A stretch of DNA of 64,000 bases from Symbiodinium natans (lineage: Eukaryota; Sar; Dinophyceae; Suessiales; Symbiodiniaceae): the NCBI GenBank assembly GCA_905221605.1, contig CAJNDS010002734.1, positions 62,001-126,000 of the forward strand, written 5' to 3'. Under the pieces are notes generated by a model, which was not told the DNA's origin, made no database searches, and saw nothing but the letters and a program-made list of their open reading frames with translations. Positions 11,869 to 60,072 of this stretch are shown in pieces; the first letter of the stretch is position 1; every line of letters begins with the position of its first letter. The translations under genes were made by a program, and so were the position numbers.

Positions 11869-11948
11869 GAGTCTGGCAGTCCCAATGCTTATGGATCATC
11901 AAAGCTGTAGTGCCTCCATGCCTACAGCGATAGCTGAAACGTGCTGGC

Positions 11949-17700: not shown

Positions 17701-19674
17701 ATATCAATAATATCAATAATACCAATAATATCAATAATATCAATAATATCAATGATATCAATACTATTATTGATATTATTGAAATTATTATTCGTATTAT
17801 AATTTTTATTCATATTATAAATATTATTAATATTATTAATGTTATTAATATTATTAATATTATTAGTATTATTAATATTCTTCATATGATCAATATGATA
17901 GATATTTCTAATAGTTTGTAATAATACCAATATTCATTACTAGTTTAATATTTTTACCATCTGAATTTAATATTCATTATATTGCTAGTATTAATAATAA
18001 TATTTTTATTATACTATCATCTACAATGGGTAGAATAAATATTATTAACATTATTAGCATCATTCATATGATGAGTATTATGAATATTACCACTGTTTTT
18101 CAACATTCTTGATCTTCTTAACATTCTTAACATTGTGAACATATATTCGAACTATCAATAGCAGTCACAAATTACTATGATCACGTAACATAATGCTATT
18201 GATGATCTGCTACGATGTTTATATCATGCTATCATAGGTGCTGATGGATCTTTAAAGTGGTTGGCCGGGCCGCCCTTTTTCGGAAACAACCCTTAAACCC
18301 TTAAACCCTTCAACCCTTCAAGCCTTCAACCCTTAAACCCTTAAACCCTTAAACCCTTAAGCCCTTAAGCCCTTAAGCCCTTAAACCCAGAAACCCAGAA
18401 ACCCTTAAACCCTTAAACCCCTAAACCCTGAAACCCTTAAACCCCTAAACCCTAAACCCTAAACCCTAAACCCTAAACCCTAAACCCTAAACCCTAAACC
18501 CTAAACTTTGGTAGCTTTAGCCGTGTTTTAACAAGGAAGCCGCTGCATCCCTCCCCGCCCGTGCCAGGGTTGTGGAGAATGCCAATACATGGGGGGGGGT
18601 TTAGGGTTTAGGGTTTAGGGTTTAGGGTTTAGGGTTTAGGGTTTATGCATGCGGTCTTGCGGACTGGGGTTTAGGGTTTAGTGTTTAGGGTTCAGGGTTT
18701 GGCGGCAAACCTTTTGTTCTTTGGTTTTATGGGGTTCAGGCTGCATTTTGCATCAGTTGCGCCAAGTGCCTAGGGGCCTGGAAACAGGAGGTGGAAGGCA
18801 AGATGAGAAGAATGCCCAAGGAAATGGCCCACGGGCCCACATGCTGCAAATGCAAAGGTTTGTGCTTTGCTGCCCGAAACCCTAAACCCTAAACCCTACA
18901 CCCTTTTCCCTCAACCCTAAACCCTAAACCTACAACCTCCCCATGGTGGCCCCCATGGCCGGGGCCTATCAAGTCCCAGGGTATGACGGCAAGGGCGTCA
19001 ATGAGGAACCAGTGCTTCAAGTAGTGAAGGCCCACTTTGCTCAGTCGCACTTCACGGCGCAGGCCGCGGTAAGTAGACACGGAGATCATGACGAAGAACC
19101 TAGGAAATGAGCCCTAAAAGGGTTTAGGGTCCATAGACCCTAGTAGGAGTTATAGTCGTATAGGGCATATGACCCCAACTTTAGGGTTCATTATATACCT
19201 TACTAGGAGTTATAGTAGTATAGGGCATGTGACCCCCAACTTTTTGGTTCATTTGGCCCCCCCAAGGAACTGGAGGATTAAGTCCATCAAGAAGATGGCG
19301 TCCACAGCGAGGCTGACCAAGAGCATCAGGTCCAAGGTGATGGGGAAAAGGCCAATTTGCAGCGGGGTCACGATGGCAACGTAGGCCAAAGCAAATCCTA
19401 CCACGACCTGCCAGCCAGAGGCATACCTTACTTGTCCCAGCATCCTTGGGGGAATTCAAGGTTAACCTTTGGGATTCTAAGGGGTAAAGGTCATCTACTC
19501 TACTACTAAGATACCATGCGCTCTCCGGGTCGATCATGTACCAGGGCTTGTTGAGGTGATGGGACCTCTTGCTGACTTCTCGCCAGCGCTCATCGAGTGA
19601 TCCCGAAAACGAAGTCCTAGGCCCGCCCGGAAAGTCGAGCTGGGGTTGGTCTTTTGGGTCCTGGCATGTCGCAG
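11949..19674 (-). CDS. Voltage-gated potassium channel with cyclic-nucleotide-binding domain (EAG/HCN/CNG-like), core exons
   Basis: Ten exons on the minus strand encode the full membrane core of a six-transmembrane channel: S1-S2, S3, the charged S4, S5, pore helix, the filter [13 protein letters not shown]6, C-linker and a CNBD. The GYGD filter predicts K+ selectivity. S4 with its regularly spaced Arg/Lys predicts voltage sensing. The CNBD places it in the EAG/HCN/CNG superfamily, active in a membrane as a tetramer. All nine internal junctions agree in phase; five use GT donors, one GC and three GA (GATCTG, GAGCCT, GATCCT). GA donors are known in dinoflagellates. Further exons lie upstream (to 21,589 and probably 23.0 kb) and probably downstream. 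Family membership is strong; subtype, ligand and gating direction cannot be told from this. Confidence 0.9.
12613..12701 (-). CDS. K+ channel exon: C-linker
   Basis: Twenty-nine codons, [20 protein letters not shown] then VREFFLHNR, match the C-linker pattern of the family (LP..L+..VR.FF). Phase 2-base start joins the single base left by the previous exon to give Arg. The donor is GATCCT, a GA-type site. Confidence 0.85.
12720..12758. repeat. T-run/G-run junction in a channel intron
   Basis: About 20 T followed by about 18 G. It lies in the GA-AG intron between the S6 and C-linker exons, close to its acceptor, and on the minus strand reads as C-run then A-run. Confidence 0.9.
12897..12985 (-). 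CDS. K+ channel exon: S6 C-terminal half
   Basis: [20 protein letters not shown] then NAESQEFRQ, the end of S6 and start of the C-linker (compare the usual G.xxAxxxGxxxxIxxxMN pattern). Acceptor GCGAAG; one base of the exon completes the Leu codon from the previous exon. Donor GAGCCT. Confidence 0.88.
13410..13497 (-). CDS. K+ channel exon: selectivity filter and start of S6
   Basis: [15 protein letters not shown] followed by [17 protein letters not shown] is the K+ filter signature. The preceding exon supplies the pore helix so that [15 protein letters not shown] is contiguous, the exact spacing expected in this family. Acceptor CCTGAG, donor GATCTG (GA type). Using the GA donor is the only choice that keeps the next exon in frame. 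Confidence 0.93.
13892..13958 (-). CDS. K+ channel exon: pore helix
   Basis: Twenty-two codons [20 protein letters not shown] plus FC, then one base. Acceptor GCCGGCAG and donor GTGCCT. The sequence corresponds to the turret and pore helix that precede the filter. Confidence 0.85.
14245..14355. mobile_element. Family A element in a channel intron
   Basis: GCTTGGAGGTTCATTGGGTA at the left and TACCCATGAACCTTCACGC at the right. It lies inside the 13,959-14,406 intron. Confidence 0.8.
14407..14581 (-). CDS. K+ channel exon: S4-S5 linker and S5
   Basis: Fifty-eight codons: [19 protein letters not shown], then [20 protein letters not shown] and [16 protein letters not shown]. The hydrophobic stretch with HWLACVW matches S5 of this superfamily. 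Acceptor ACATAAG, donor GTTTAGG taken from a telomere-type array directly behind the exon. Confidence 0.88.
14617..14745. repeat. AT microsatellite in a channel intron
   Basis: Alternating TATA/TATG tracts in the intron between the S4 and S5 exons. Confidence 0.85.
14818..14957. mobile_element. Inverted-repeat element, family J, in a channel intron
   Basis: TAAAAGGAGGGACCC at the left and GGGTCCCTCCTTTAG at the right form inverted ends of about 13 bases; the interior contains TACATATACCTTATATAG. Followed at once by a TTTAGGG array. Confidence 0.75.
14968..15330. repeat. Facing telomere-type arrays in a channel intron
   Basis: About 12 TTTAGGG units (14,968-15,061) and about 20 CCCTAAA units (15,210-15,325) face each other. 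The second array begins exactly at the splice donor of the S4 exon. Confidence 0.95.
15329..15410 (-). CDS. K+ channel exon: voltage sensor S4
   Basis: [20 protein letters not shown] then RLAKPSR. Charged residues recur at third positions (R-L-I-R-V-L-x-M-L-K-M-L-R), the S4 signature. Acceptor CAAGCAG. Two bases join the last base of the S3 exon to make Glu, giving PWDLIEYSAS across a 3.55-kb intron. Confidence 0.9.
15645..16278. repeat. Left arm of large inverted repeat
   Basis: Pairs base for base with 17,001-17,626 on the opposite strand; the coordinate sum is constant at 33,279 over at least 570 bases, so there are no indels until near the outer ends. The arms contain GGTGGGGGG-rich sequence and a GATGGTGAT repeat. 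Confidence 0.95.
16300..17000. repeat. Spacer of inverted repeat: dispersed copies of a GGGCCGGATACAAATCCG motif
   Basis: The motif CCACGGGGCCGGATACAAAT or a close variant appears about nine times at uneven spacing, often followed by CCGACCG and CATCCCCGGTG. Both strands stay open, giving repeated GAGYKSD on plus and RICIRPRG on minus; these are products of the repeat. Confidence 0.9.
17001..17626. repeat. Right arm of large inverted repeat
   Basis: Reverse complement of the left arm, nearly identical, which implies recent origin or gene conversion. An 8-base difference near the outer end (15,672 region) is the first indel. Confidence 0.95.
17638..17910. repeat. 9-base tandem repeat AATATCAAT and degenerate ATT-rich tract
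   Basis: About fourteen units of AATATCAAT followed by TATTAATAT-type repeats. Begins at the outer edge of the right inverted-repeat arm. Confidence 0.9.
18288..18510. repeat. CCCTTAAA/CCCTAAA array
   Basis: An octamer variant (CCCTTAAA) block changes to the heptamer CCCTAAA block, showing two expansion events. Confidence 0.95.
18966..19099 (-). CDS. K+ channel exon: end of S2 to S3
   Basis: Forty-four codons: [20 protein letters not shown], then [20 protein letters not shown] and [18 protein letters not shown] is the S3 signature. Acceptor TTTCCTAG. The first base completes the Gln of the previous exon, giving DLILQ-FFVMISV. Confidence 0.9.
19271..19430 (-). CDS. K+ channel exon: S1-S2
   Basis: [20 protein letters not shown] then [20 protein letters not shown] and [13 protein letters not shown]1 ([15 protein letters not shown]) and S2 ([13 protein letters not shown]) are both clear. 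Acceptor GGACAAG, donor GTTCCT. Confidence 0.9.
19507..19674 (-). CDS. K+ channel exon: cytoplasmic segment before S1
   Basis: [20 protein letters not shown] then [20 protein letters not shown] and [15 protein letters not shown]. The run [21 protein letters not shown] is the conserved lead-in to S1 in EAG/CNG-type channels. Donor GTAGTA; acceptor at the end of a telomere-type intron. Confidence 0.85.
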
Positions 19675-20262: not shown

Positions 20263-20276
20263 CCCCCGAGCAACCG

Positions 20277-21087
20277 GCAAATTTTGGTGGAAAACCGGGA
20301 AATTTCGGTGGAAAACCGGGAATTTTTAGTGGAAAAACCGGGAATTTTTAGTGGAAAAACCGGGACTTTTTAGTGGAAAACCGGGAATTTTTGGTGGAAA
20401 ACCTGTGTTTTTAGTGGAAAAACCGGGAATTTTTTGGTGGAAAAACCGGGAATTTTAAGTGGAAAACCGGTAATTTTTAGTGGAAAACCGGGAATTTTAA
20501 GTGGAAAACCGGGAATTTTTAGTGGAAAACCGGGAATATTTAGTGGAAAAACCGGGAATTTTTGGTGGAAAAACCGGGAAGTTTTAGTGGAAAAACCGGT
20601 AATTTTTAGTGGAAAAACCGGGAATTTTTAGTGGAAAAACCGGGAGTTTTTGGTGGAAAAACCGGCAAGTTTTAGTGGAAAAACCGGGAATTTAGAGTGG
20701 AAAACCGGGAATTTTTAGTGGAAAACCGGGATTGTGGAAAACCGGGAATTTTTAGTGGAAAACCGGGAATTTTTAGTGGAAAACCGGGAATTTTTAGTGG
20801 AAAACCGGGAATTTTTAGTGGAAAACCGGGAATTTTTAGTGGAAAACCGGGAATATTTAGTGGAAAAACCGGGAATTTTTGGTGGAAAAACCGGGAAGTT
20901 TTAGTGGAAAAACCGGTAATTTTTAGTGGAAAACCGGGAATTTTTGGTGGAAAACCGGGATTTGTGGAAAACCGGGAGTTTTTAGTGGAAAACCGGGAAT
21001 TTTTAGTGGAAAACCGGGAATTTTTAGTGGAAAACCGGGAATTTTTGGTGGAAAACCGGGAATTTTTAGTGGAAAAACCGGGAAGCC
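20277..21087. repeat. 21-22-base minisatellite, about 37 copies
   Basis: Unit GTGGAAAACCGGGAATTTTTA with A/G variants and an optional extra A. Some frames stay open as a 7-residue repeat (SGKPGIF), but the array sits in a channel-gene intron on the opposite strand, so coding is unlikely. Confidence 0.95.
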
Positions 21088-21250: not shown

Positions 21251-21356
21251 CTTTCCCAAAGGATCCATGTACCTATATAGTATATACTTGGGCCTTAAAG
21301 GGGTTCCTATATAGTAGCTTTAGGGCCAAAGTTCATACTATATAGGGACGTGGATC
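21251..21356. mobile_element. Family K inverted-repeat element acting as an intron
   Basis: Ends CCCAAAGGATCCATGTACCT and GGGACGTGGATCCTTTGGG, with CTATATAGTAT/ATACTATATAG inside. As a minus-strand intron it runs from a GA donor (GATCCACG) to GGGAAAG, and the two exons join in phase 0. A GT donor six bases further in is the alternative. Confidence 0.7.
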
Positions 21357-21388
21357 CTTTGGGTTTCGTTCTGCTTGACGGGAGCCTA
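21357..21388 (-). CDS. Micro-exon between two inverted-repeat elements
   Basis: Ten codons plus two bases (GSRQAERNPK). One side is the family K element, the other the family A element, each flush with the exon edge. Confidence 0.5.
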
Positions 21389-21515
21389 CTTGGAGGTTCA
21401 TGGGTAGCTATAAGTAGGGCCGAAGTAGGGTTAAGTTACAAGTCCCTGAATAAGGTCACAACCGTTAGAATGATAGTTACCCCACTTATAACCCCACTTG
21501 TAACTGCCCATGAAC
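21389..21515. mobile_element. Family A element acting as an intron
   Basis: 127 bases with terminal repeats CTTGGAGGTTCATGGGTAG and CTGCCCATGAACTTTCAAG. On the minus strand the donor is GTTCATGGG inside one repeat and the acceptor CCTCCAAG at the end of the other. The exons at 21,516-21,589 and 21,357-21,388 join in phase 1. Confidence 0.75.
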
Positions 21516-21589
21516 TTTCAAGTTTACGGACAAGATCTGACAAGCGTACTCGCGCCCACAAGGGTGTGACGTGGCCCAAAGTGGCTGTC
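21516..21589 (-). CDS. N-terminal exon upstream of the channel core
   Basis: Twenty-four codons TATLGHVTPLWARVRLSDLV plus RKLE. Acceptor TTTGCAG. A competing frame just upstream reads LKELETENKRLQDS, a coiled-coil-like peptide; both may be used in adjacent exons. Confidence 0.5.
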
Positions 21590-22556: not shown

Positions 22557-22676
22557 CCTAAACCCTAAACCCTAAACCCTAAACCGCTACTTAGAAGTAC
22601 CCATGAGCCTCCAAGTAGTTTGGGTTACAGTGCACTTCTTCGTGCCATTGCAACGCCTTCTATGGCCCGTGTACCC

Positions 22677-22787
22677 AGAGAGCCCAATACCCCTTAATTA
22701 AGGAATATAGCTTAAATCACCAAGGGATCCTTATTATAGTTTAAGGAATAAATCCTTAATTCAGGGGTATTGGGCTCTTTGGGTACC
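22677..22787. mobile_element. Family B inverted-repeat element, probable intron
   Basis: Ends CCCAGAGAGCCCAATACCCC and GGGGTATTGGGCTCTTTGGG. On the minus strand the donor GTACCC follows the exon at 22,787-22,880 directly. Confidence 0.85.
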
Positions 22788-31304: not shown

Positions 31305-31319
31305 GAGCCGGATCGGCTC
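31305..31319 (-). other. 3' hairpin of the LINE
   Basis: Perfect 6-base stem GAGCCG/CGGCTC with a 3-base loop, 34 bases from the element's 3' end. The stop codon TGA (31,318-31,320) overlaps its first arm. Confidence 0.6.
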
Positions 31320-34104
31320 AGCGGAGACGAGACAAAAGCTTCTGGACTTCCAGAAGTAAAGTTCTGGCGTCATTGGCCTCAGAGTTTAACGAATGAGACA
31401 AACAAGGGCGCTTGCAAAATGAAGCGAGTCGCTTAGCGAAGTTGGGACACCTAGTGAGACACGAAATGCAGAACCCATCTCTGCACGTAAGGTCAAAGGG
31501 AACATAGCAATGCTTGCCCTTCTGCCAGAAACCTATTAAGCTGGACCAACGAGCCAGCATGCCAACAAAGAAAGCATGTCTTTGGGAAGCAGAGCAAAAG
31601 TTATCCAAAAACGGATGAAGCGACTCCGAACTAAGGGACTGGGCAAGTGAGATGAGAGAGGAAAGCAAATCCTCCACAACAGGTGCAAACTTATCGCCCA
31701 AGCGCAGAGTGATCCCGTGAAACTGCACCCTGTTAATTACAACCTGAAGAGAGTCCAAAACAGCCCCGCAAAAGGAAGCCAGCCTCAAAAGCGACGAACC
31801 TTCCGGACCGGAACAGGACGAATGAGCACGTTTGGAATCGCACATTGAAGGCGTCCTACCACAAAAACAACAAATGAAGTCACGAGAAAAAGTCCAAGAA
31901 CCAATCAAGTGACCAGCTTTGTACGAGGAAATTCTTTTCCTGAATTTGGCCCACGTGCGTTGCAAAGCAAGGAGAGAAGCCAGGGGCAGCTTGCAGCCTA
32001 AGGCAGTAAGAATGACATGGTAAGGAAGAATCGCCAAGTCTTCCGCATGAAACTGTTCGAGACCACCGTCCGCACGGACAATGATTTTATCATCGATGCT
32101 CCTGTATCTACCAGAGGCAGCCTGACATATCTGAGAGCAGACAGACCACCAAGGAGGCGCAGTGGTTTTCGGAAGCGGCTTGCGCAGAGAACCGACCAGG
32201 GAAACGATATCACGACTGTGACAACCATCTAGGTCCTGAACGAAGACCGCGAGATGCTCACCAAGATTCATTTCAAACCTGTTGCGAAGATGCCCAGCAA
32301 TCACAGATGGAAAAACTTTTAAGGACTGAATGGGAGGAAAGCCAAAAGGACAGGACCAAACCGCAGGGAGAGATCTGTGCCAATATCTCTTCTGAGGGGG
32401 GGACTCATGAACATAAATACCGCAGCGAACCCACAGAGCTTCACTAAGATGCTTAAAGGAAGCCGTAGCCTGAAGCACAGTAAGCCCGTTAGCTTTGAAA
32501 AGGTCAGCGGCAGGGCCAACAAGCTCAAGAAACAAAGTGAAAGCATACAGCCACGAGACTTCACAGCTGGCGGAATTATCTCTGTTCCAGAGAGACCAAA
32601 ATAGAAACATATTGGCAAAGAGAGACAGCGAGCCTCTCCAGGAGGTCCACTCGGCACGGGAAGTAAAAGGGGACCAGTTAAAGCTCGGCATAGTGGCAAC
32701 AGACGGCCAACACGTACGAGGATGCTGGACACTACCCACCGCAGGAGTAGAGACGGACTGAGTGCAAATTTTATCAGGAGAATACCTAATCTCTCTCTCA
32801 AACGCCATCCACAGAGACAAGGTCTCACACGCCCAGTGTTGGTACTTATCCCACTTGTTCCGAACGTGAATAGGCATATCACGAGTGCAGATGAGCATGT
32901 TTTGCGCGCAGCATGGCCAATCCCTCGAAGGCGAGAGGGGGCAACGATCCCTCATGTGCTGAAATTTAGGACACTCATTAAGAAAATGAAAAATATCAGC
33001 CAATTCATAGTGGCAGTATGGACAAAAGGAATGAATCTGCTTATTCATTCGCAGCAAACGAAGCGGAGTAGGATGTGCGTTAGAAAGCGTGCGAGCGAGC
33101 ACATGCCAGAGAGGATGCTGTCTGGTCCAGGTTTTAAGAAGCTTGCAAGAGAAGTCGAGAGCGGCCTCTTTGCAACCATGCCAAGAAGCGCCTAAACTGG
33201 AAATAAGAGCACGACGCAGCGCATCCCTAAGATGGTGCTTAAGGGCAATTAAGTCAGTTTGCCCGGGCTTCCAGATAAACTGGCAGTGCGTGGTGATGCA
33301 TCCGTCAGCACGGATATGCCACCCTAAATGAGACAAGTCATCAAGAAAGAGGCGCATGGGGCCCAAACCTGCCTTACGGCTGGCAAGCGCGCTATATTCA
33401 GAAAGAGAAGCCAAAACACCGTGTTTCTGAAAGACTCTCTCCCACCGAGTGAGAGAGGAGTAAATAAGAACAGACTTGGGGTCATACCGGTGACAAGGAA
33501 GAACGAAAGCCATAACAGCAGCGTGGTTGGCAAGAGGACAGCCAAAAGAGAGGCTCAAACCTTTAGCTCTGATGGCATCCAAATCACGGTTGACAGGACG
33601 AATCATACTAGAAGTGTAAGAAAACTTCGGCAAGATAATGGAAGTGTAAACGTAAGCACGAACTTCCTTGGTGATGTTATCACCAGCCTTCTGGAGCATG
33701 TGAAAGATACGCTGCGCTTCAGAAAGTTTACCAGCAAAAAACTTCGCACGGGAGGTTTGGGGAAGAGGAAGAGGAACCCCAAGATAAATAAAAGAAACGT
33801 CTGACTGGACATCAGAACCGTCCTGCCAGCGAAGAACAGCAGGACCGTTGACGGCAAACTGCGTAGATTTCGGGCGCGTCTTAAAACCCCAGGACTCATC
33901 CCAGGCTTCAATGCTGGAGAAAAGATGTTGGAAGATATCACCATCTTCGCGGTTATGGAGACCAGAAACAAGAATACGGTCATCCACGAAAACCCAACCC
34001 TCGAACTCAAGCTCGTTGGGGATGCTATAAAGGTTGTGCAACCATTTGCTGAGGCAGGCAGCAGCAGACAGCATGGAGATCGGGTCTCCCTGCGGTACAC
34101 CGTT
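31318..34104 (-). CDS. LINE ORF2-like reverse transcriptase, C-terminal part
   Basis: One open frame of over 920 codons. It enters at SNGVPQGDPIS (RT motif B, 34,072-34,104) and continues to a Met at 34,074 and VFVDDRILVS (motif C, where VDD replaces the usual ADD). The thumb follows, then a zf-RVT-type knuckle CPYCHYELADIFHFLNEC, and a long C-terminal region with two further Cys-rich clusters (FICCFCGRTPSMC and CRDGFCISCLTRC). The length beyond the zf-RVT, about 500 residues, is unusual and unassigned. An in-frame TAA lies just upstream of motif B in the flanking DNA. No frameshift or internal stop is seen, but without its N-terminus the product cannot mobilise itself. Confidence 0.93.
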   Translation of the reverse strand, partial: NGVPQGDPISMLSAAACLSKWLHNLYSIPNELEFEGWVFVDDRILVSGLHNREDGDIFQHLFSSIEAWDESWGFKTRPKSTQFAVNGPAVLRWQDGSDVQSDVSFIYLGVPLPLPQTSRAKFFAGKLSEAQRIFHMLQKAGDNITKEVRAYVYTSIILPKFSYTSSMIRPVNRDLDAIRAKGLSLSFGCPLANHAAVMAFVLPCHRYDPKSVLIYSSLTRWERVFQKHGVLASLSEYSALASRKAGLGPMRLFLDDLSHLGWHIRADGCITTHCQFIWKPGQTDLIALKHHLRDALRRALISSLGASWHGCKEAALDFSCKLLKTWTRQHPLWHVLARTLSNAHPTPLRLLRMNKQIHSFCPYCHYELADIFHFLNECPKFQHMRDRCPLSPSRDWPCCAQNMLICTRDMPIHVRNKWDKYQHWACETLSLWMAFEREIRYSPDKICTQSVSTPAVGSVQHPRTCWPSVATMPSFNWSPFTSRAEWTSWRGSLSLFANMFLFWSLWNRDNSASCEVSWLYAFTLFLELVGPAADLFKANGLTVLQATASFKHLSEALWVRCGIYVHESPPQKRYWHRSLPAVWSCPFGFPPIQSLKVFPSVIAGHLRNRFEMNLGEHLAVFVQDLDGCHSRDIVSLVGSLRKPLPKTTAPPWWSVCSQICQAASGRYRSIDDKIIVRADGGLEQFHAEDLAILPYHVILTALGCKLPLASLLALQRTWAKFRKRISSYKAGHLIGSWTFSRDFICCFCGRTPSMCDSKRAHSSCSGPEGSSLLRLASFCGAVLDSLQVVINRVQFHGITLRLGDKFAPVVEDLLSSLISLAQSLSSESLHPFLDNFCSASQRHAFFVGMLARWSSLIGFWQKGKHCYVPFDLTCRDGFCISCLTRCPNFAKRLASFCKRPCLSHSLNSEANDARTLLLEVQKLLSRLR

Positions 34105-34109
34105 ACTGC

Positions 34110-34127
34110 AGGCTTAAAAAGGGTGCC
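34110..34127. repeat. LINE target-site duplication, right copy
   Basis: Identical to 31,254-31,271. Confidence 0.93.
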
Positions 34128-34454: not shown

Positions 34455-34562
34455 AAGTTTCTTAATCCCTGTTCCCCTAGGAAGAAAAAAGGACCCTTTT
34501 TGTTCATATACAAGAAAGCCCATAACCCAAAAAGTAAAAAGGATCCCTAACACTGATCTAGT
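34455..34562. mobile_element. Family G element
   Basis: About 105 bases nearly identical to 41,730-41,830 (for example TCCCTGTTCCCCTAGGAAG and GGATCCCTAACACTGATCTA). Not strongly palindromic. The second copy acts as an intron. Confidence 0.8.
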
Positions 34563-34917: not shown

Positions 34918-35003
34918 CCAGGATGGGCTATTATACCCTATAATCCCCGAAAAGCCCTTTGTAGGGTTCATTATTGGGATTATAGGGCCTAGTAGCCCAT
35001 CCT
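34918..35003. mobile_element. Inverted-repeat element, family L
   Basis: Perfect terminal inverted repeat CCAGGATGGGCTA / TAGCCCATCCTGG of 13 bases and an internal CCCTATAATCCC/GGGATTATAGGG pair. One copy in the window. Confidence 0.85.
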
Positions 35004-35349
35004 GGAGCGGCAGGTCCGTGCTCACACCTCCTGCGCCGGAAAGCAACTAATCGGCCATCAACAGCCAAGCTGCTTGCAGAAGCGGGCAATAGGGACTCCC
35101 TGGCGCTGTCGACATGTTTGGGTTTTTAGGGTTTAGGGTTTAGGGTTGAGGGCTTAGGGTTTAGGGTTTGGGGTGCAGGGTTCATAGGGTTTATAGGGTT
35201 TATAGGGTCCGGGACTCTGATAGGTTTGGGTGCAACTTGAGGGCAAATGGCATCTAGAAGTCGGCACAGCCAGTGAAGCAACTGCATTAAGATATCCCCC
35301 CCCCTTCCCACCCTAAACCCTAAACTAAACCCTAAACCCCCCCCGACCC

Positions 35350-37990: not shown

Positions 37991-38796
37991 AATCTGCATA
38001 GGTCTCTTTAGTCACAACAGGGCGCGTGTGCCGGCCCACGGTAAGGGATCTCCTCCGCTGTTCCACGGAGAAGGCGGGCGCCTGTAGGAATGAAGTCGCC
38101 AGCAAGTGGCTTGAAGGTCGAAATAACAATATACTAATGTGATGAGATGATAATAGAACAATAGAACAATATAACTATATAAAAATATAATGGCATAAAG
38201 ACATAACAACATAATGATATTCTTTTTCAATAAGAATACAAACATATTTGTCCGAATACAATAGGTACTGATATAACGATACATTGGTATAACAATACAA
38301 TCAGACAATCATAAAGTAATGTAACAACATAGAAATGTGTCATAATTCTATACTACACTATAACAGTCGAACAATGTAGCCTAGCAGTGCAGTAACATGC
38401 CCTGCTCTGGTGTCCCAGTACCTTCCCGAGGTTGCCCCGCACATCGTAGTCGCCAGGGCCAGGAGACGGCGGCTCCGGAAACGGAGACCTGCATGTCGGC
38501 TCTGCAAAACACGATGTGCCCTACACAGAACCGCAGGACTAGTTGTGCTGCTTTCGCGTTGGTCCGCCGTCATCATCCTCATCCTTGCTTGTAAGATTCG
38601 TATTCATCTTTATCTTCGTTGTCCTCGTCATCGTCTTAGCTATGATCATCTTTCTCGCCCTCGTTTCTGTCCTTGTTGTCCCTCCTGCTGCTCCTCCTCC
38701 GTGTCACCGACGTCATCATCGTGATGGATGGTCATGGTGATGCTGATGATGGCGACGAGTCGTAACCATCATACTCATCATCATCCCAAAGCGCTT

Positions 38797-38921
38797 ACTT
38801 GGAGGTTCCTGGGTAGTTATGGTTGGGCTTTATAAGTAGGGTAACTGTAATTACGACTGGTTATAACCTTGTTTAGGATACTTACAACCCTACTTGTAAC
38901 TACCCATTACTACCCATGAAC
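38797..38921. mobile_element. Family A element acting as an intron
   Basis: TTACTTGGAGGTTCCTGGG and CCCATGAACCTCCAAGTA ends. On the minus strand the donor is GTTCATGG after GELLKPYLE; the acceptor would be CCAAG or CCAAGTAAG. In the first case a stop codon follows at once, in the second a His-rich tail. Confidence 0.7.
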
Positions 38922-38999
38922 CTCCAAGTAGGGTTTTAGGAGCTCTCCGGCCGCCTTCTCACGCTGGGTGACCTTGGCACGGTCGGTGTCTTCGATCGC
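38922..38999 (-). CDS. Probable exon, unknown protein
   Basis: Twenty-six codons AIEDTDRAKVTQREKAAGEL plus LKPYLE, phase 0 in and out. Acceptor CCTGCAG; the last three codons TAC TTG GAG are part of the family A terminal repeat, so the element contributes coding sequence. Confidence 0.6.
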
Positions 39000-41548: not shown

Positions 41549-41660
41549 CTGCACCCAAACAGCCCAATACCCCTTAATTCAGGAATAGAGCTTCAATTAC
41601 AGAGGGAGCCTTATTATGATTTAAGGACCTTAATTAGGGGGTATTGGGCTCTTTGGGAAC
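41549..41660. mobile_element. Family B inverted-repeat element acting as an intron
   Basis: AGCCCAATACCCCTTAATT and CTAATTAGGGGGTATTGGGC, 112 bases between donor GTTCCC and acceptor GGGTGCAG on the minus strand. The exon before it is 41,661-41,729. Confidence 0.75.
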
Positions 41661-41729
41661 CCTAGAAGTTGGAGGTCGGGCGCCGGCCTCCTTGGCGGAA
41701 TACTGGCCAGGAGCTGTGCTGGACTTGGC
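41661..41729 (-). CDS. Exon between two different inserted elements
   Basis: Twenty-three codons AKSSTAPGQYSAKEAGARPP plus TSR, phase 0 in and out. A family G element is flush on one side and a family B element on the other. Confidence 0.65.
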
Positions 41730-41822
41730 CTTAATCCCTGTTCCCCTAGGAAGAAAAAAGGATCCTTTTTGTTCACATATAAGAAAGCCCATAACCCAAA
41801 AAGTAAAAAGGATCCCTAACAC
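41730..41822. mobile_element. Family G element acting as an intron
   Basis: 93 bases from donor GTGTTAGGG to acceptor GGGATTAAG on the minus strand. The exons join in phase 0 (PEIPATRS-AKSSTAPG). Near-identical to 34,455-34,562. Confidence 0.75.
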
Positions 41823-41905
41823 TGATCTAGTGGCGGGGATCTCAGGCCAGTATCTGCGGATGCGCGCCCAGTCCTCAGCCAGCCATTCAGAGCCTGCCCC
41901 CGCCC
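41823..41905 (-). CDS. Probable exon, unknown protein
   Basis: SKGAGAGSEWLAEDWARIRR then YWPEIPATRS. Trp-rich amphipathic peptide; no family recognised. Confidence 0.55.
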
Positions 41906-43890: not shown

Positions 43891-44129
43891 TAGGGTTATA
43901 AGTGTTCTAAAGGTAGGGTTATCAGTACCCTACGTGGGGTTACAAGTATTCCAAAAGGAGGGGGTATAAGTGCCCTAAATAAGGTTCTAGTCAGCAATAG
44001 TTATAGTTGTCCTACTACATGGTTGGAGAAGGACCTTACCTTCCAGTGGGGCTGGTTCTTGATATGGAATGAGGTACCTATCTACTCCCTTAAAGGTTGT
44101 AGAGAGGGCCCTAGTGGTTGGAAAAGACC

Positions 44130-44243
44130 TTACTTGGAAGTTCATGGGTAGTTGGAAGTAGGGTTACAAGTACCCTAAACAATGTTATAGCCAGCTATAA
44201 CTGTTGTTTCCCTCCTTCTCATAGCTTCCCATGAACCTTCCAG
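44130..44243. mobile_element. Family A element
   Basis: CTTACTTGGAAGTTCATGGG and TTCCCATGAACCTTCCAGTA ends. Confidence 0.8.
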
Positions 44244-44314
44244 TACTATACAGTGGAATCTCGAAAACCTGCACTGAACGTGTCAAAGTGATGATCTGAT
44301 TATGCATGGAGAAC

Positions 44315-44734: not shown

Positions 44735-47235
44735 TATTAAAAGTTTTAATAGTTTTAATAGATTGAATTTTAAAAAAGCCTCCGAAACTATTAAAACTAT
44801 TAAAAAGAAGCATTTTTAATAGTTTTAATAGTTTTAATAGTTTCAACTTTTAAAAAGCCTTCCGAACTATTAAAACTTTAAAAAGAGAAGGCCTGGCCAG
44901 GAGATTCCTGAACTTTTAAAACTATTAAAACTTTTAAAACTATTAAAACTATTAAAACTTTTAAAGAGGCTTCCTTTTAATAGTTTTAATAGTTTGAACT
45001 TTTAAAAAGCCTCCCAAACTATTAAAACTATTAAAAGAAGCCTTTTTAATAGTTTTAACAGTTTTAACAGTTTTAATAGTTTTAATAGTTTTAAAAGTTT
45101 TAAAAGTTTTAAAAGTTCAGGAATCTCCAGGCCAGGCCTTCTCCTCTTTAAAGTTTTAATAGTTTTAATAGTTTGAACTTTTAAAAAGCCTCCCAAACTA
45201 TTAAAACTATTAAAAAGAAGCCTTTTTAAATAGTTTTAATAGTTTTAATAGTTTCAACTTTTAAAAAGCCTCCCAAACTATTAAAAATCTAAAAAAGAGA
45301 TGGCCTGGCCAGGAGATTCCTGAACTTTTAAAACTATTAAAACTTTTAAAACTTTTAAAACTATTAAAACGATTAAAACTTTTAAAAAGGTTTCCTTTTA
45401 ATAGTTTTAATAGTTTTAATAGTTTGAACTTTTAAAAAGCCTCCCAAACTATTAAAACTATTAAAAAGAAGCCTTTTTAATAGATTTAATAGTTTTAATA
45501 GTTTTAAAAGTTTCAAAAGTTCAGGAATCTCCAGGCCAGGCCTTCTCCTTTTTAAAGTTTCAATAGTTTTAATAGTTTGAACTTTTAAAAAGCCGCCCAA
45601 ACTATTAAAACTATTAAAAAGAAGCATTTTTAATAGTTTTAATAGTTTTAATAGTTTTAATAGTTTTAATAGTTTTAATAGTTTTAATAGTTTTAATAGT
45701 TTTAATAGTTTTAATAGTTTTAAAAGTTTTAAAAGTTTAGGAATCTCCAGGCCAGGCCTTCTCCTTTTTAAAGTTTTAATAGTTTTAATAGTTTCAACTT
45801 TTAAAAAGCCTCCCAAACTATTAAAACTATTAAAAAGAAGCCTTGTTAATAGTTTTAATAGTTTTAATAGTTTCAACTTTTAAAAAGCCTTCCAAACTAT
45901 TAAAACTTTAAAAAAGAGAAGGCCTGGCCAGGAGATTCCTGAACTTTTAAAACTATTAAAACTTTAAAAACTTTCAAAACGATTAAAACTATTAAAACTT
46001 TTAAAAAGGCTGCCTTTTAATAGTTTTAATAGTTTTAATAATTTAAACTTTTAAAAGGCCTCCCAAACTATTAAAACTATTAAAAAGAAGCCTTTTTAAT
46101 AGTTTTAATAGTTTTAATAGTTCTAAAAGTTTAAATAGTTTTAAAAGTTTTAAAAGTTCAGGAATCTCCAGGCCAGGCCTTCTCCTTTTTAAAGTTTTAA
46201 TAGTTTTAATAGTTTGAACTTTTAACAAGCCTCGCAAACTATTGAAACTATTAAAAAGAAGCAATTTTAATAGCTTTAATAGTTTTAAAAGTTTCAAAAG
46301 TTCAGGAATCTCCAGGCCAGGCCTTCTCCTTTTTAAAGCTTTAATAGTTTTAATAGTTTCAACTTTTAAAAAGCCTCCCAAACTATTAAACCTATTAAAA
46401 AGAAGCCCTTTTAATAGTTTAATAGTTTTAATAGTTTTAAATAGTTTTAATAGTTTAATAGTCTTAATAGTTTGAAAAGTTTCAAAAGTTTTAAAAGTTC
46501 GGGAATCTCCAGGCCAGGCCTTTGCCTTTTTAAAGTTTTAATAGTTTTAATAGTTTGAACTTTTAAAAAGCCTCCCAAACTATTAAAACTATTAAAAAGA
46601 AGCCTTTTTAAATAGTTTTAATAGTTTTAATAGTTTTAATAGTTTTAATAGTTTCAACTTTTAAAAAGCCTCCCAAACTATTAAAAATTTAAAAAAGAGA
46701 AGGCCTGGCCAGGAGATTCCTGAACTTTTAAAACTATTAAAACTTTTAAAACTATTAAAACTATTTAAACTTTTAAAACTTTTAAAAAGGCTTCCTTTTA
46801 ATAGTTTTAATAGTTTTAATAGTTACAACTTCTAAAAAGCCTCCCAAACTATTAAAACTATTAAAAAGAAGCCTTTTTAATAGTTTTAATAGTTTTAAAA
46901 GTTTTAAAAGTTCAGGAATCTCCAGGCCAGGCCTTCTCCTTTTTAAAGTTTCAATAGTTTTAATAGTTTGAACTTTTAAAAAGCCGCCCAAACTATTAAA
47001 ACTATTAAAAAGAAGCATTTTTAGTAGTTTTATTAGTTTTAATAGCTTTAAAAGTTTCAAAAGTTCAGGAATCTCCAGGCCAGGCCTTCTCCTTTTTAAA
47101 GCTTTAATAGTTTTAATAGTTTCAACTTTTAAAAAGCCTCCCAAACTATTAAAACTATTAAAAAGAAGCCTTTTCAATAGTTTTGATAGTTTTAATAGTT
47201 TCAACTAAGCCTTTCAAACTATTAAAACATTAAAA
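44735..47235. repeat. 2.5-kb composite satellite built on TAGTTTTAA
   Basis: Tracts of the 9-base unit TAGTTTTAA and its complement alternate with a conserved insert containing TTCAGGAATCTCCAGGCCAG plus GCCTTCTCC, and with CTTTTTAAAAAGCC-type hinges. Higher-order units of about 160-330 bases occur in both orientations. Long Leu/Lys-rich open frames (LLKLLKLLK) are products of the repeat. Confidence 0.95.
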
Positions 47236-48017: not shown

Positions 48018-48096
48018 CATCACTTTTTTTGTAAGAAACAGCGCCGCGTAGATCCGGGCAGATTTTGTCCATGGTGTTTTCTCAAAAAACACGAAG

Positions 48097-49020
48097 GACA
48101 AAATTTGGCCAAATCGGGCTGCTCTTCGTCGGAGATGAGAAATGCGCGGCTCGATTTGGCCAAATTTGGCCGGGCAGCCTCCGGGCAAAATTTGGCCAAA
48201 TCGGGCTGCTCTTCGCGTGCGATGAGAAACGCACGGCTCGATTTGGCCAAATTTTGCCGGGCAGTCCCCTGGCAAAATTTGGCCAAATCGGGCTGCTCTT
48301 CGTGAGCGATGAGAAATGCGCGGCTCGATTTGGCCAAATTTTGCCGGGCAGCCTCCAGGCAAAATTTGTCCAAATCGGGCTGCTCTTCGCGTGCGATGAG
48401 AAATGCACGGCTCGATTTGGCCAAATTTTGCCGGGCAGTCCCCTGGCAAAATTTGGCCAAATCGGGCTGCTCTTCGTATGCGATGAGAAATGCGCGGCTC
48501 GATTTGGCCAAATTTTGCCGGGCAGCCTCCGGGCAAAATTTGGCCAAATCGGGCTGCTCTTCGTATGCGATGAGAAATGCGCGGCTCGATTTGGCCAAAT
48601 TTTGCCGGGCAGCCTCCGGGCAAAATTTGGCCAAATCGGGCTGCTCTTCGTATGCGATGAGAAATGCGCGGCTCGATTTGGCCAAATTTTGCCGGGCAGC
48701 CTCCGGGCAAAATTTGGCCAAATCGGGCTGCTCTTCGCGTGCGATGAGAAATGCACGGCTCGATTTGGCCAAATTTTGCCGGGCAGCCTCCTGGCAAAAT
48801 TTGGCCAAATCGGGCTGCTCTTCGTATGCGATGAGAAATGCGCGGCTCGATTTGGCCAAATTTTGCCGGGCAGCCTCCGGGCAAAATTTGGCCAAATCGG
48901 GCTGCTCTTCGTGTGCGATGAGAAATGCACGGCTCGGTTTGGCCAAATTTTGCCGGGCAGCCTCCGGGCAAAATTTGGCCAAATCGGGCTGCTCTTCGTG
49001 TGCGATGAGAAATTCGCGGC
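48097..49020. repeat. 87-base tandem repeat, about 10.6 copies, each a hairpin
   Basis: The period is exactly 87 bases, a multiple of three, with few substitutions between copies. Within each unit GGCAAAATTTGGCCAAATCG and CGATTTGGCCAAATTTTGCC are perfect 20-base inverted repeats around a 40-base loop. Several frames on both strands stay open for 250-390 codons because the period is 29 codons. Confidence 0.97.
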
Positions 49021-49034
49021 TCAAAGGGACACCT

Positions 49035-50190
49035 TTTTGGATTGGCAGCAAACCCAGCTGATGCTCATGATATCTCTCTCTATATAGAGGGGCGATGGAA
49101 CGGGTGTCCTTTTCCTTTTCAATCGTCTTCTGCATCTTCAAAGGAGAAAGAACGACACCCCCCAAGAGGGAAAAGAACACAAGAGACAGGGAGGGGAATT
49201 GAAGAGCTCCTCTCTTTACTTATTCTTTCCCTTTCCTCTCTTCCTACCTGTTCTTGTTCTTATTCGCTTCAAAAAGCAAAATAAGGGAAAGGAGCTTTCC
49301 TGGAGAGGAGGGAGGACACCTATATGTGAAGAGCAAGAAGGGTTGTTTTCTCATTCAAAAGGGACAAAGGAGAGAAGATAGATGTAGAGGAAAGTCATCT
49401 TCTTTGCGCCTTGTTTTGTCCGTCCCTCTCATTGCTTCCTGTCTCTTCTATTCCTTTCAGTACGCTTCCAGAAAAAAGGCATCCTTGTGATCTCTCCTCT
49501 CTCATTTCCCTTTCCCTTCTCTCCACCTATTACCTTTCAACTGATTAAAAAACAAGAAAGGAACTTGTATGATAAAGCAGGGGAAAGGTAAGCAGAGGGT
49601 GACTCCTTGCGCGTGGACCTTGCCGTACTTCATCATATCCCTCTTCTCGGCCTATCTCTTCTGCTTTTTTTTCTTACTGTTCTCCTTTTCATAATTCTTC
49701 CTGTTTAGTTGTTCTTATTTCGAAAAGAAAGAGGGAAGGGATAGATAAGGGAGAGAGGATCGATAAAGAAGAGTCCCATCTTATCTGTGCCTTGTTTTGT
49801 CTTTCCTGCTCCTTTATTCATCTCTCTATTCTTGTCTTTGCTCTTCCTGTTAAAAATGCAACCCTGTCTATGTCTCCTCCTCCTTCTCTCTCCCTCCTCT
49901 TCAAGGACAAAAAGCACAAGAAAATAAAAATATCAGGGGAATGGAGGCCCCTGGCCTTTCTTATCTTTCTTCAATGGTTGGGGAATGTGAGCGGGGTTGG
50001 CTGCTTGCCCGTGGCCCCTCTCCATGCTTCAGCATATGCCTCCTCTCGCCTTATCTCCTCGGTTCTTTTCATTGCTCCCAAACGGAAAAAGAAAGCGAGT
50101 TCCTTCATTTTCATTGTTCTTCCTTTGGGTTTTTGTTTCAAAGGGAAACGAACAAGAGAGAAGAAAGACAAGAAGGATAGGAAAGATGAA
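49035..50190. repeat. Segmental duplication A, copy 1
   Basis: About 1.15 kb nearly identical to 50,540-51,638, offset about 1.5 kb. Sequence is rich in CTCTTCC/GAAAGAGG and includes GCAGCAAACCCAGCTGATGC and CCTTGCGCGTGGACCTTGCC. Confidence 0.9.
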
Positions 50191-50259
50191 GACGGGTTCT
50201 ATCGAACGGGTGTCCCTTTGGATCGTTTTCTGCATCTTCAAGCGAGAAAAAAGGATGCC

Positions 50260-50410: not shown

Positions 50411-50539
50411 GATGGAAGCAGGCGTCCTTTTTTTACGTTTGCTGTGTCTTCAAGGCAAAAGAAAGACATCCAAAAAGAAAACATTTAGGGGTGTCCCTTT
50501 TGCTCGTTTGACACACAGAAAGCGATTAAAGGGACAGCG

Positions 50540-51638
50540 TTTTGGATGGGCAGCAAACCCAGCTGATGCTCATGATATCTCTCTCTATATATAGGGGCGA
50601 TGGAACGGGTGTCCTTTTCCTTTTCAATCGTCTTCTGCATCTTCAAAGGAGAAAGAACGACACCCCCCAAGAGGGAAAAGAACACAAGAGACAGGGAGGG
50701 GAATTGAAGAGCTCCTCTCTTTACTTAGTCTTTCCCTTTCCTCTCTTCCTACCTGTTCTTGTTCTTATTCGCTTCAAAAAGCAAAATAAGGGAAAGGAGC
50801 TTTCCTGGAGAGGAGGGAGGACACCTATCTGTGAAGAGCAAGAAGGGTTGTTTTCTCATTCAAAAGGGACAAAGGAGAGAAGATAGATGTAGAGGAAAGT
50901 CATCTTCTTTGCGCCTTGTTTTGTCCGTCCCTCTCATTGCTTCCTGTCTCTTCTATTCCTTTCAGTACGCTTCCAGAAAAAAGGCATCCTTGTGATCTCT
51001 CCTCTCTCATTTCCCTTTCCCTTCTCTCCACCTATTACCTTTCAACTGATTAAAAAACAAGAAAGGAACTTGTATGATAAAGCAGAGGAAAGGCAAGCAG
51101 AGGGTGACTCCTTGCGCGTGGACCTTGCCGTACTTCATCATATCTCTTTTCTCGGCTTCCTTTCCTTACCCTTCTCCTGTTTTCATAATTCTTCCTTTTT
51201 GTTTTCCTTATTTCGAGAAGAAAAGGGAAGAGAGAGATAAGGGAGAGAGGATCGATAAAGAAGATGCCTTGTTTTGTCTTTCCTTATCCTTTATTCATCT
51301 CTCTTCCATTGTTGTCTTTGCTCTTCCCATTAAAAATGCAATCCTGTCTATTTCTCCTCCTCCTTCTCTCTCCGTCCTCTTCAACGACAAAAAAACACAA
51401 GGAAATCATAAGAGGGGAATGGAGGCCCTTGTCCTTTCTTATCCTTTTTCAATGGTTGGGGACATGAACGGGGTTGGCTGCTTGCCCGTGGCCCCTCTCC
51501 ATGCTCCCTCCTCTTGTGCCCAAACGGAAAAGAAAGCGAGTTCCTTTCATGTTCATTGTTATTCCTTTGGTTTTTTTGTTTCAAAGGGAAACGAACAAGA
51601 GAGAAGAAAGACAAGAAGGATAGGAAAGATGAAGACGA
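50540..51638. repeat. Segmental duplication A, copy 2
   Basis: Direct repeat of 49,035-50,190 with small deletions near its end. Partial third and fourth copies lie at about 54,180-54,590 and 55,955-56,340, and an inverted fragment at about 54,660-54,960. Confidence 0.9.
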
Positions 51639-51664
51639 ATACCATCTTCTCTTTGCCATGGGCA

Positions 51665-52540
51665 AAACCCGAGCCCTAGCTTCCAAATACACCCTATTTG
51701 AGCCACCCACCCCCCCTCCCCCGTTCTCCCCCCTCTCCTTTATAGGAAACGAAAACTGGACACGAACGATGTCCTCTATCTTTTCATGCAGCAGGAGAGA
51801 GGTCCTCTCTCTCCTAATGGGACATGAAAGTCCTCCTGTATTCGTTTTCATTGAAAGATCTGTCTCTCGAGGACATGGAAGATCTACTCTATCTCTTTCT
51901 AGTAAACACTTCTTCAAGTAGGAGAAAGGCGTTTTCATAAGTTGTAAAAAAGGAGCTCTGTCATTCCTAAAAGAGAAGGAGAGAGGGGAGCCCTTGGAGG
52001 ACCCCTTTTCAGAAGAGGCAAGGGCATTCATTACCTACACAGAGATAAAAGAGCTTTCAGATGACCTAGACACATGACTTTTTCGATTGAATTCTGTGGC
52101 TCATACTACAATAATAAAACAAAACGCATTTGATTTTTTTCAGAAAAGAGAAATAGCGCAAGGTCTACGGAAAGAACAACTTATTCAACAAAGCCAGCAA
52201 ACATAAAGAAGCAACCGAAACGAATGTTGTGCAATTTAGTTTCAGGTAGCTTCTGTGGGTTTTGTAAAAACAATACGGTATAGAAAAGCGCGTCGGTTAG
52301 ACCCTTTCTCTTCAACAACTTTCGGCTAAACCCTACACACCAAATTCGTCAAATTCTGTGGTTAGACTCGGTTAGACCCTTTCTTTGTAGAAACCTTCCG
52401 TCCATTACTCTACGCCCGAAATCTCGTCAATTCTGTGGTTACTCCCTTTCCCTCAAAAAAACAAGGGTTAACCTGTTGAAGTTTTAGATAAGAAATAGTT
52501 ATAATGGCTTCCAAAGGTTTAAATGCTTCTGCTTTTGTAG
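51665..52540. repeat. Segmental duplication B, copy 1
   Basis: Nearly identical over about 870 bases to 56,376-57,251 (offset 4,711). Contains GAGCCACCCACCCCCCCTCC near its start and GCTTCCAAAGGTTTAAATGC at its end. No convincing ORF. Confidence 0.93.
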
Positions 52541-54092: not shown

Positions 54093-54176
54093 TCCTTTAA
54101 AACAAGGCGGTTCAACAGTACCAAATTTTCTTAAAGGTTGTCTTGAAAAAAATTGGTACTGTTGAACCGCCCTGTT
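54093..54176. repeat. Inverted repeat CGGTTCAACAGTACCAA
   Basis: A 17-base perfect inverted repeat around about 30 bases, nested in a second pair (GCCCTGTTT / AAACAAGGC). Confidence 0.85.
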
Positions 54177-54859
54177 TTCTTCAAACACGGCAGCACGCTT
54201 CCAGAAAAATTGCCACCTTGCTATCTCTCTCCTCTCTCACTTCCCTTTCCCTTCTCTCCTTCTAGTTTCTTTTTTAACTGATAAAACACAAGAAAGGAAC
54301 TTGCGTGATAAAGCAGTGGAAGGTAAAGCAGAGGGTGACTCCTTGCGCGTGGACCTTGCCGTACTTCATCATATCCCTCTTCTCGGCCTATCTCTTCTGC
54401 TCTTTTTTCTTACTGTTCTCCTTTTCATAATTCTTCCTGTTTAGTTGTTCTTATTTCGAAAAGAAAGAGGGAAGGGAGAGATAAGGGAGGGAGGAAAGAT
54501 AAAGAAAAATGCCATCTTCTCAGCGCCTTGTTATGTCTCTCCTTCTTCTCTATTCATCTCTCTTCTATTCTTTTCTTTGCCATTCCATTGAAACTGGATT
54601 CCTGTTATCTCTCCTCTCCTCTCTCCTTCTCTCTCGCTCCTCTTCTCCTGTTCCCCTCTAAACGATTGCTCTTTACAGATAGGTGCCCCCTCTCCTCTTC
54701 AGGAAATTTCCTTTCCCTTATTTTGCTTTTTGAAGCGAAGAAAACAACAGATAAGAAGAGAGGAAAGTGAATGACTAAGTAAAGAGAGGAGCCCTTCAAT
54801 TTCCCTCCCTATATCTGACGCTATTATTCTTTCTTGGTTGTCGCCCTTCTTTCTCCCTT

Positions 54860-56375: not shown

Positions 56376-57251
56376 CAAAACACGACTCTCAGCTTCCAAA
56401 TAAACCCTATCTAAGCCGGCCACCCCCCGCCCCCCCCTCCCCCCTCTCCTTTATATGAAATGAACACTAGACACGAACGACGTCCTCTATCTTTTAATGC
56501 AGCAGGAGAGAGCTCCTCTCTCTCCTAATGGGACATGAAAGTCCTCTTGTATTCGTTTTCATTGAAAGATCTGTCTCTCGAGGAAATGGAAGATCTACTC
56601 TATCTCTTTCTAGTAAACACTTCTTCAAGTAGGAGAAAGGCTTTTTCATAAGTTGTAAAAAAGGAGCTCTGTCATTCCTAAAAGAGAAGGAGAGAGGGGA
56701 GCCCTTGGAGGACCCCTTTTCAGAAGAGGCAAGGGCATTCATTACCTACACAGAGATAAAAGAGCTTTCAGATGACCTAGACACATGACTTTTTCGATTG
56801 AATTCTGTGGCTCATACTACAATAATAAAACAAAACGCATTTGATTTTTTTCAGAAAAGAGAAATAGCGCAAGGTCTACGGAAAGAACAACTTATTCAAC
56901 AAAGACAGCAAACATAAAGAAGCAACCGAAACGAATGTTGTGCAATTTAGTTTCAGGTAGCTTCTGTGGGTTTTGTAAAAACAATACGGTATAGAAAAGC
57001 GCGTCGGTTAGACCCTTTCTCTTCAACAACTTTCGGCTAAACCCTACACACCAAATTCGTCAAATTCTGTGGTTAGACTCGGTTAGACCCTTTCTTTGTA
57101 GAAACCTTCCGTCCATTACTCTACGCCCGAAATCTCGTCAATTCTGTGGTTACTCCCTTTCCCTCACAAAAACAAGGGTTAACCTGTTGAAGTTTTAGAT
57201 AAGAAATAGTTATAATGGCTTCCAAAGGTTTAAATGCTTCTGCTTTTGTGG
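56376..57251. repeat. Segmental duplication B, copy 2
   Basis: Direct repeat of 51,665-52,540. It ends at TTCTGCTTTTGTGG; shortly beyond lies the return to telomere-repeat-bearing DNA. Confidence 0.93.
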
Positions 57252-59931: not shown

Positions 59932-60072
59932 CTGACACAAAAAAAAAAGAAACCCAAAGAGCCCAATACCCCCATAATTGTAAGGAATATATCCTTAAGT
60001 CACAATAAGGATCCCGTATTATTATTTAAGCTACATTCCTTAATTAGGGGGAATATAGGGCTCTCTGGGAAC
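59932..60072. mobile_element. Family B element acting as an intron
   Basis: 141 bases, donor GTTCCCAGAGAGCCC, acceptor TTGTGTCAG on the minus strand; CCCAAAGAGCCCAATACCCC and GGGGGAATATAGGGCTCTC are the inverted ends. Confidence 0.78.

Follow-up and report, generated by a model that had tools for sequence, protein, structure and literature searches.

Results

The locus and its features

The window analysed here, i.e., the whole stretch of 64,000 nucleotides of Symbiodinium natans DNA under study, carries a minus-strand locus in which a short candidate exon lies between two repeat elements of separate families, hereafter G and B, with a further candidate exon on the other side of G (Table 1). 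In a first-pass annotation both elements had been read as complete introns around a 23-codon exon. The sequences quoted there were found in place on the minus strand, together with the other copies of both elements in the window, and the 93-bp boundary given to G had to be moved, as the repeat extends 8-9 bases past the proposed donor and the unit that recurs in the genome is 101 bp.

Table 1. Elements G and B in the window, with the target-site duplications (TSDs), predicted intron and candidate exons at the locus; a caret marks a splice junction, predicted or possible
Feature	Positions	Strand	Description
Candidate upstream exon	41835..41893	minus	Ends ...WARIRRYWPEIP; possible acceptor GGGGCAG^GC
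Left TSD copy, GCCA	41831..41834	minus	Would supply the predicted GC donor
Element G, window copy	41730..41830	minus	101 bp, CTAGATCAGTG...GGGATTAAG, ends in AG
Predicted 105-nt GC-AG intron	41730..41834	minus	Left TSD plus element; inferred from family behaviour
Right TSD copy, GCCA	41726..41729	minus	First bases of the downstream candidate exon; acceptor AAG^GCC
Candidate downstream exon	41661..41729	minus	AKSSTAPGQYSAKEAGARPPTSR; 3' end uncertain
Element B, window copy	41554..41657	minus	104 bp, inverted repeat CCCAAAGAGCCCAATACCCC...GGGGTATTGGGCTGTTTGGG, 27/30 bases matching; TSD not recognisable (TT/TG)
Second copy of G	34461..34561	minus	TSD AAAA/AAAC (one mismatch), without a usable donor
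Copy of B	22674..22783	minus	TSD TA/TA
Copy of B	59953..60069	plus	TSD AA/AA

Structure and copies of element G

Self-comparison of the window returned G as a 102-bp repeat at 97% identity (41730-41831 against 34461-34562), and the flanks of 30 excised loci, when compared, delimited a unit of 101 bp with sharp ends (CTAGATCAG...GGGATTAAG), flanked at most of these loci by a 4-bp direct repeat. The element terminates in AAG, and its other end, read in reverse orientation, also finishes in AG; the terminal inverted repeat is imperfect (9/13 ungapped at the ends) and is accompanied by an inner inverted repeat of 11 bp (GGATCCTTTTT/AAAAAGGATCC).

The 17-bp 5' end of G has 254 exact matches throughout the genome searched (759,417,921 bases in 2543 contigs), some of these copies being partial, and at least 40 of the matches listed (500 candidates, 40 scored) showed 98-100% identity over 101-102 bp. 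Once 13 partial or short-flanked matches and 5 duplicates had been set aside from 86 element matches, 68 distinct full-length copies were left, with an exact 4-bp TSD in 51/68 and at most one base differing in 60/68, chance agreement being 1.1% for mismatched flank pairs. Moreover, flanks were unrelated among the loci read. Since the full-length copies compared are 91-100% identical to the window copy, the family looks young. In brief, G is a dispersed DNA element of 101 bp with a 4-bp TSD, probably of the kind known as MITEs, which are nonautonomous DNA transposons with inverted repeats.

Some copies depart from this form and are possible nested or longer relatives of G, with L063 interrupted by AT-rich DNA, L077 repeating its middle part, and L066, L080 and L081 matching at the 5' side only. 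RNA folding of the predicted G intron was no more stable than that of shuffles (z -0.08), so that a hairpin bringing the splice sites together is unsupported and was dropped as a candidate. In viral contigs, with records near the window's own genome possibly excluded, an exact-pattern search for G gave 0 matches.

Target sites of G and coding context

TSDs starting GT, GC or GA were classed as donor-type, and those whose final C is preceded by A, T or G as mirror-type. Donor-type TSDs adjoin 30/254 of the G 5' ends and the mirror class 28/254; therefore, the family overall is not biased to spliceable sites. GT, GC and GA starts are all present among donor-type TSDs, and counting GG starts alone, none was found beside the 254 5' ends.

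All 30 donor-type loci were excised, of which 25 were usable (full length, enough flank) and 5, partial or interrupted, were dropped. The left TSD plus the element was then removed and the sense frame checked across the junction, a test that assesses coding exons only and that G copies inside long introns escape. Over 180 nt the sense frame was open in 15/25 donor-type copies against 6/43 other G copies (Fisher p 1.2e-4), and over 120 nt in 19/25 against 14/43 (p 5.8e-4). Over 240 nt it was open in 8/25 against 2/43 (p 3.7e-3), the latter divided into mirror-TSD (0/12), TSD-less (1/8) and other-TSD copies (1/23, drawn mostly from the 30 closest relatives of the window copy and thus not random). 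Furthermore, none of 10 additional non-donor copies had an open 240-nt sense frame (0/10), these being a non-random set taken from the first 20 places listed, with already-used ones avoided and one of them partial.

Among mirror-TSD copies, the sense frame was open in 2/12 at 120 nt and in 0/12 at 180 and 240 nt; this class consists of 10 of the 20 copies fetched (of 28) plus L037 and L038, with L108 repeating L038 and the other 9 fetched copies being partial, TSD-less or without a match. Their antisense frame was open in 6/12, 2/12 and 0/12 at 120, 180 and 240 nt, and on these counts introns made by G in reverse orientation were rejected.

Donor-type TSDs are associated with coding context among the G copies compared, and this association at the level of the family is beyond chance. 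Open frames alone are no proof of splicing, since donor-type copies also had an open antisense frame at 180 nt in 12/25 and a frame open with the element retained in 7/25. In the longest joined frame, 21/25 donor-type copies hit a stop inside the insert if it is retained, that frame differing in L010 and L084 from the one argued for here. In this context, a subset of G copies look like predicted introns in coding DNA. Whether copies lie mostly outside introns, a question that the first pass had raised, was followed up as coding context, with a divided outcome: long (240-nt) frames span a part of the donor-type copies and few others.

Coding DNA holds few of the other G copies that were sampled, so that G seems to be chiefly a short transposon, which turns into an intron where its target happens to allow it. 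By the coding context of its copies, the family taken together does not have the look of a dedicated introner. The non-donor results at 240 nt, together with the counts of 30 and 28 for the two TSD classes, speak against exon enrichment, not gene enrichment.

Protein similarity at individual G loci

At L087 (TSD GAGG) the element interrupts RCC1-type repeats, and its exact removal leaves an interrupted repeat of 35 amino acids, like its two neighbours; three internal repeats align without gaps across the junction, with 24-26 of 35 residues identical, and a donor of the type first proposed, inside the element, would insert four extra residues. L084 (TSD GAGT) corresponds to the end of a glutathione S-transferase (GST), where GST_C_3 scored 27.7 bits for exact removal against 24.5 with 12 nt kept. 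A PDB search with the GST peptide gave three weak matches (E 0.007, 0.19 and 0.51), two of them gapless from three residues before the junction and one with a 4-residue gap beside it; weak as they are, and one of them gapped, they are not decisive on the junction. L085 (TSD GTAT/GTCT, one mismatch) interrupts a VWD-like motif, GDPHLASFD^GLLYSFNGLGE, which is gapless across the junction, the VWD match (E 0.042) being under the Pfam cut-off; an internal donor would hit a stop there, and a search of the genome for a paralogue of the L085 peptide found none. Two loci do not discriminate between donors, namely L064, where ankyrin repeats begin (Ank_2 87.3 bits for exact removal against 88.0 with 12 nt retained), and L089, which adjoins an RRM_2 domain. 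Judged by these alignments, the RCC1 repeats fit an exact removal of G, and the GST and VWD motifs fit it more weakly.

The L084 boundary recurs in two other GST-like loci, L120 and L121 (G000:C2212 for L084; C2066 and C1002 for the others), whose exon-like boundary is at that codon too (FQ^E). In the stretch of L120 and L121 that was read, inspection by eye showed no G-like sequence beside the boundary; the L084 intron is a young G copy. The shared position supports the boundary, and implies that the intron position either predates the G copy or took two separate hits; parallel insertion and intron replacement are the two options.

Candidate exons at the window copy

Removing 41730-41834 restores the pre-insertion sequence, and the joined candidate exons read SEWLAEDWARIRRYWPEIP^AKSSTAPGQYSAKEAGARPPTSR, with the predicted junction ATCCCC^GCCAAG. 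Under a codon model trained on 10 gene fragments of the host genome, which replaced a poor earlier one trained mostly on a LINE ORF, the 42 joined codons reach 8.45, a value that real coding windows also show and that places them in the top 3.2% of the 3994 windows of equal length without a stop. The codon signal of the candidate exon is modest. No Pfam domain matched the candidate exons, and no paralogue of the candidate exon peptide was found in the genome. Pfam was also searched with 10 ORFs, chiefly from the neighbourhood of the site and of the second G copy, and with two more sets of window ORFs (100 and 114), giving weak scattered matches, none at the locus; ARAGORN and Rfam (gathering thresholds) found nothing.

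The phase 0 join without a stop, which had been put forward for the 93-nt version of G, is real and at the same time uninformative, because the 93 nt are themselves stop-free in that frame, which is open even with the element retained. Moreover, 40% of random window stretches of about 104 nt have, on a given strand, a GT within 8 nt and an AG within 8 nt of opposite ends, and 75% of random 69-nt stretches of the window are open in at least one frame of a given strand. At such levels the picture of two introns, as originally drawn, is not beyond chance.

Element B

The 112-base intron formerly attributed to B takes its ends from the flank, since B occupies 41554-41657 (104 bp) and both the alleged donor GT (41659-41660) and the acceptor AG (41549-41550) lie outside it. 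When CCC...GGG ends were required and no more than 3 mismatches allowed in each inverted repeat, we obtained 19 clean-ended copies, which define an inverted-repeat element (CCCAAAGAGCCC...GGGCTCTTTGGG) of 94-117 bp whose ends are without splice sites and which has a 2-bp TSD in 16/19 copies, against 11% for mismatched pairs. One conserved end pattern has 438 exact matches in the genome, two being possible per copy. With both orientations considered, a GT within 6 nt upstream plus an AG within 8 nt downstream accompanies 5/19 copies, the window copy included, and the other two window copies are without that AG beside the matching end. With B removed, the spanning frame on either strand averages 71 codons over the 19 copies, compared with 61 at random positions; in one orientation 4/19 copies span at least 110 codons, and none of these four, on visual inspection, is clearly one gene across the site. 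B RNA folds strongly (z -5.88), as expected for an inverted repeat, and an exact-pattern search of viral contigs and GTDB genomes, with records near the window's genome possibly excluded, returned 0 matches.

B is a MITE with a 2-bp TSD, unrelated to G, whose arrival was separate and whose own ends do not make it an intron; the ends, TSDs and frames of the 19 copies give no clear sign that it makes introns. At L054, around position 1417, a B copy with TSD GA comes just after a stretch encoding a P-loop-like peptide (VVVGDTSSGKST), and this copy may be in an intron next to an exon.

Other features of the window and genome

A 21-base segment of the spliced leader of dinoflagellates, as quoted in PMC8045281 (in excerpt), has 205 exact matches in the genome. 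In the window, a 931-codon open frame at 31318-34113 (minus) encodes a LINE-type reverse transcriptase with the motif FVDDR, its frame broken upstream; the RVT_1 match (E 7.4e-5) is below the curated cut-off and covers the C-terminal part of the profile, and the ORF has one weak relative in viral contigs. Judged by eye, 11925-12503 and 19282-19422 (minus) are likely exons of a cyclic-nucleotide-gated-channel-like gene, with a cNMP_binding match below the cut-off (E 0.019) and a membrane-segment-like stretch upstream.

Repeats of several kinds were also noticed. A palindromic family of about 116-140 bp occurs at 422-541, 722-846, 21387-21523, 38796-38930 and 44124-44245, its copies being 70-75% alike and in both orientations. 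Palindromic stretches of 80-115 bp, 73-84% self-complementary, lie at 9165-9278, 21255-21363, 3125-3231, 34918-35005 and 54099-54178, and are probably more MITEs. The arms of an inverted pair (15645-16278 and 17001-17627; 634 bp, 98.9% identical) enclose repeated units of 58-62 bp. Tandem arrays comprise a 21-bp unit x 38 at 20272-21084, an AT-rich 9-bp unit (TTTTAATAG) in higher-order repeats at 44737-47201, and an array at 48035-49087 in which several frames are open on both strands. Segmental duplications join 49023-50194 to 50528-51637 (89% identical) and 51663-52538 to 56376-57249 (97% identical). Dozens of short TTTAGGG/CCCTAAA arrays are spread across the window.

Discussion

A probable target-dependent intron

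We consider it probable that G is a MITE with a 4-bp TSD which becomes an intron when that TSD starts GT, GC or GA, and that B is an unrelated MITE. As we propose it, G would insert with duplication of a 4-bp target; with a GT-, GC- or GA-starting target inside an exon, and the element in sense orientation, the 5' splice site would come from the left duplicate, and the 3' splice site from the terminal AAG of the element followed by G. Splicing would then take out one duplicate plus the element, and the coding sequence would be exactly restored. For the window copy the TSD GCCA predicts in this way the GC-AG intron at 41730-41834. We infer splicing at the window copy and at other G sites from these features of sequence, and for the window copy in particular we rate the odds of splicing in a real transcript as slightly better than even.

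The evidence favours the first two TSD bases as the probable donor rather than an internal GT, as an internal donor would allow any TSD, yet coding context tracks G[ACT]. Thus, of the two splice sites that G had been said to carry, the acceptor is indeed the element end, and the donor GTGTTAGG, 8 nt inside the element, gives way to the TSD; the internal GT was rejected on the TSD-class bias and the RCC1 and GST alignments. Likewise, the reading of both elements as introners survives for G in kind, a subset of copies being predicted introns, fails for G in mechanism, and finds no support for B in view of its ends, TSD and frames. The first-pass annotation was right about G, but the evidence it stated did not carry that conclusion.

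Other readings of the locus

A serious contender, which we place somewhat short of even, is that the window copy sits in noncoding DNA and stays unspliced, its "exons" being chance open stretches, even if other copies are introns. The lack of a Pfam domain and of a genome paralogue found at the locus is consistent with this, as are the short stretch of TTTAGGG-type repeat DNA directly downstream of B, the 98-codon open stretches on both strands, and the 10/25 donor-type copies without an open 180-nt sense frame. Against it, a donor is available in GCCA and an acceptor in AAG^G, the joined codons stand high among stop-free windows in the codon score given above, and the flanks of the window copy are GC-rich (0.66/0.59).

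As regards the other side of the downstream exon, B may lie inside a longer intron. In one version of this, B is a passenger in, or at the start of, an intron running from near CTTCTAG^GGTT to far downstream; we hold this tentatively, as possible but rather less than evenly likely. The open frame ends within B, coding-like codon use appears further on, on both strands, and Symbiodiniaceae introns have a mean length of several hundred bases (PMC11453091, in excerpt), but further downstream no exon belonging to this gene was identified.

It is improbable that donor-type copies lie in coding DNA merely since GC-rich coding DNA offers G-starting targets, with no splicing involved. Flank GC is indeed higher for donor-type (0.558) than for other-TSD copies (0.505); however, the mirror class makes the same 4-bp demand, with a lower flank GC of 0.521, and has no copy open at 180 nt, the retained insert would bring a stop to most donor-type copies in the longest joined frame, and protein repeats run without gaps across the junction. 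Finally, that G and B are both complete introns with their own sites (GTGTTAGG...ATTAAG and GTTCCC...GTGCAG) is very improbable and was rejected: the dinucleotides are present, the G acceptor is the element end and an internal donor would leave 12 nt in full-length copies and keep the frame, but coding context goes with G[ACT] TSDs (15/25 against 6/43 at 180 nt), the RCC1 and GST alignments favour exact removal, and the GT and AG of B are flank to an element with a 2-bp TSD in 16/19 copies that resemble random positions.

Relation to known introners

The preferred reading, G as a MITE turned into an intron by its target site, has close parallels. Introners of S. microadriaticum, as described in excerpts of Gozashti et al. 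(2022; PMC9860276), have a 4-bp TSD, as G has, terminal inverted repeats, and an element-carried 3' site with a TSD-derived 5' site, as predicted for G; the example given there is 115 bp long, against 105 for the predicted G intron. G differs in that its inverted repeats are imperfect and few of the sampled non-donor copies are coding. With this type G shares many near-identical copies and the 4-bp TSD, and a carried 3' site, a TSD 5' site and a restored frame are predicted computationally for the donor-type subset. As predicted introns, then, the G copies would behave like the published S. microadriaticum type. In the same source, gene enrichment of introner copies is given for 161/175 introner genomes (PMC9860276, in excerpt).

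Many families and recent activity are described for introners in dinoflagellates, Polarella glacialis among them (Roy et al., 2023, via PMC11453091, in excerpt), and the likeness of G to these and to S. microadriaticum introners is one of described features. Introner elements of Amoebophrya have border repeats of 3-5 nt and intron inverted repeats, in which they are G-like, and highly varied non-canonical splice motifs, unlike the predicted GT/GC/GA-AG of G (Farhat et al., 2021; PMC7789003, in excerpt). Among MITEs in general, both G and B fit in being short, TSD-flanked and many-copy, B having long inverted repeats and a 2-bp TSD. Since the kind of element is already described in another Symbiodinium, G is a good example of it and not a new class.

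Significance

In a table of seven dinoflagellates, six have GC donors in 25-58% of introns and AGG acceptors in 80-97%, and the seventh has GC donors in <0.1% and AGG acceptors in 56.5% (PMC10666404, in excerpt). A G-starting 4-bp duplicate before an AG-ending element would yield a G-something donor and an AG^G acceptor at once. It is an unlikely, though conceivable, extension that the dinoflagellate splice code itself (GT/GC/GA donors, AG^G acceptors) is the footprint of introners like G.

G would insert largely regardless of genes, and copies in sense orientation at G[TCA] targets would persist in exons, as introns. For one 101-bp element this amounts to a testable rule, in which the 4-bp target sequence predicts which insertions can become introns, and the predicted spliced and unspliced copies of G in a single genome form a natural experiment on intron birth. 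Should other families follow this rule, the combination of GT/GC/GA donors with AG^G acceptors in dinoflagellates would be accounted for.
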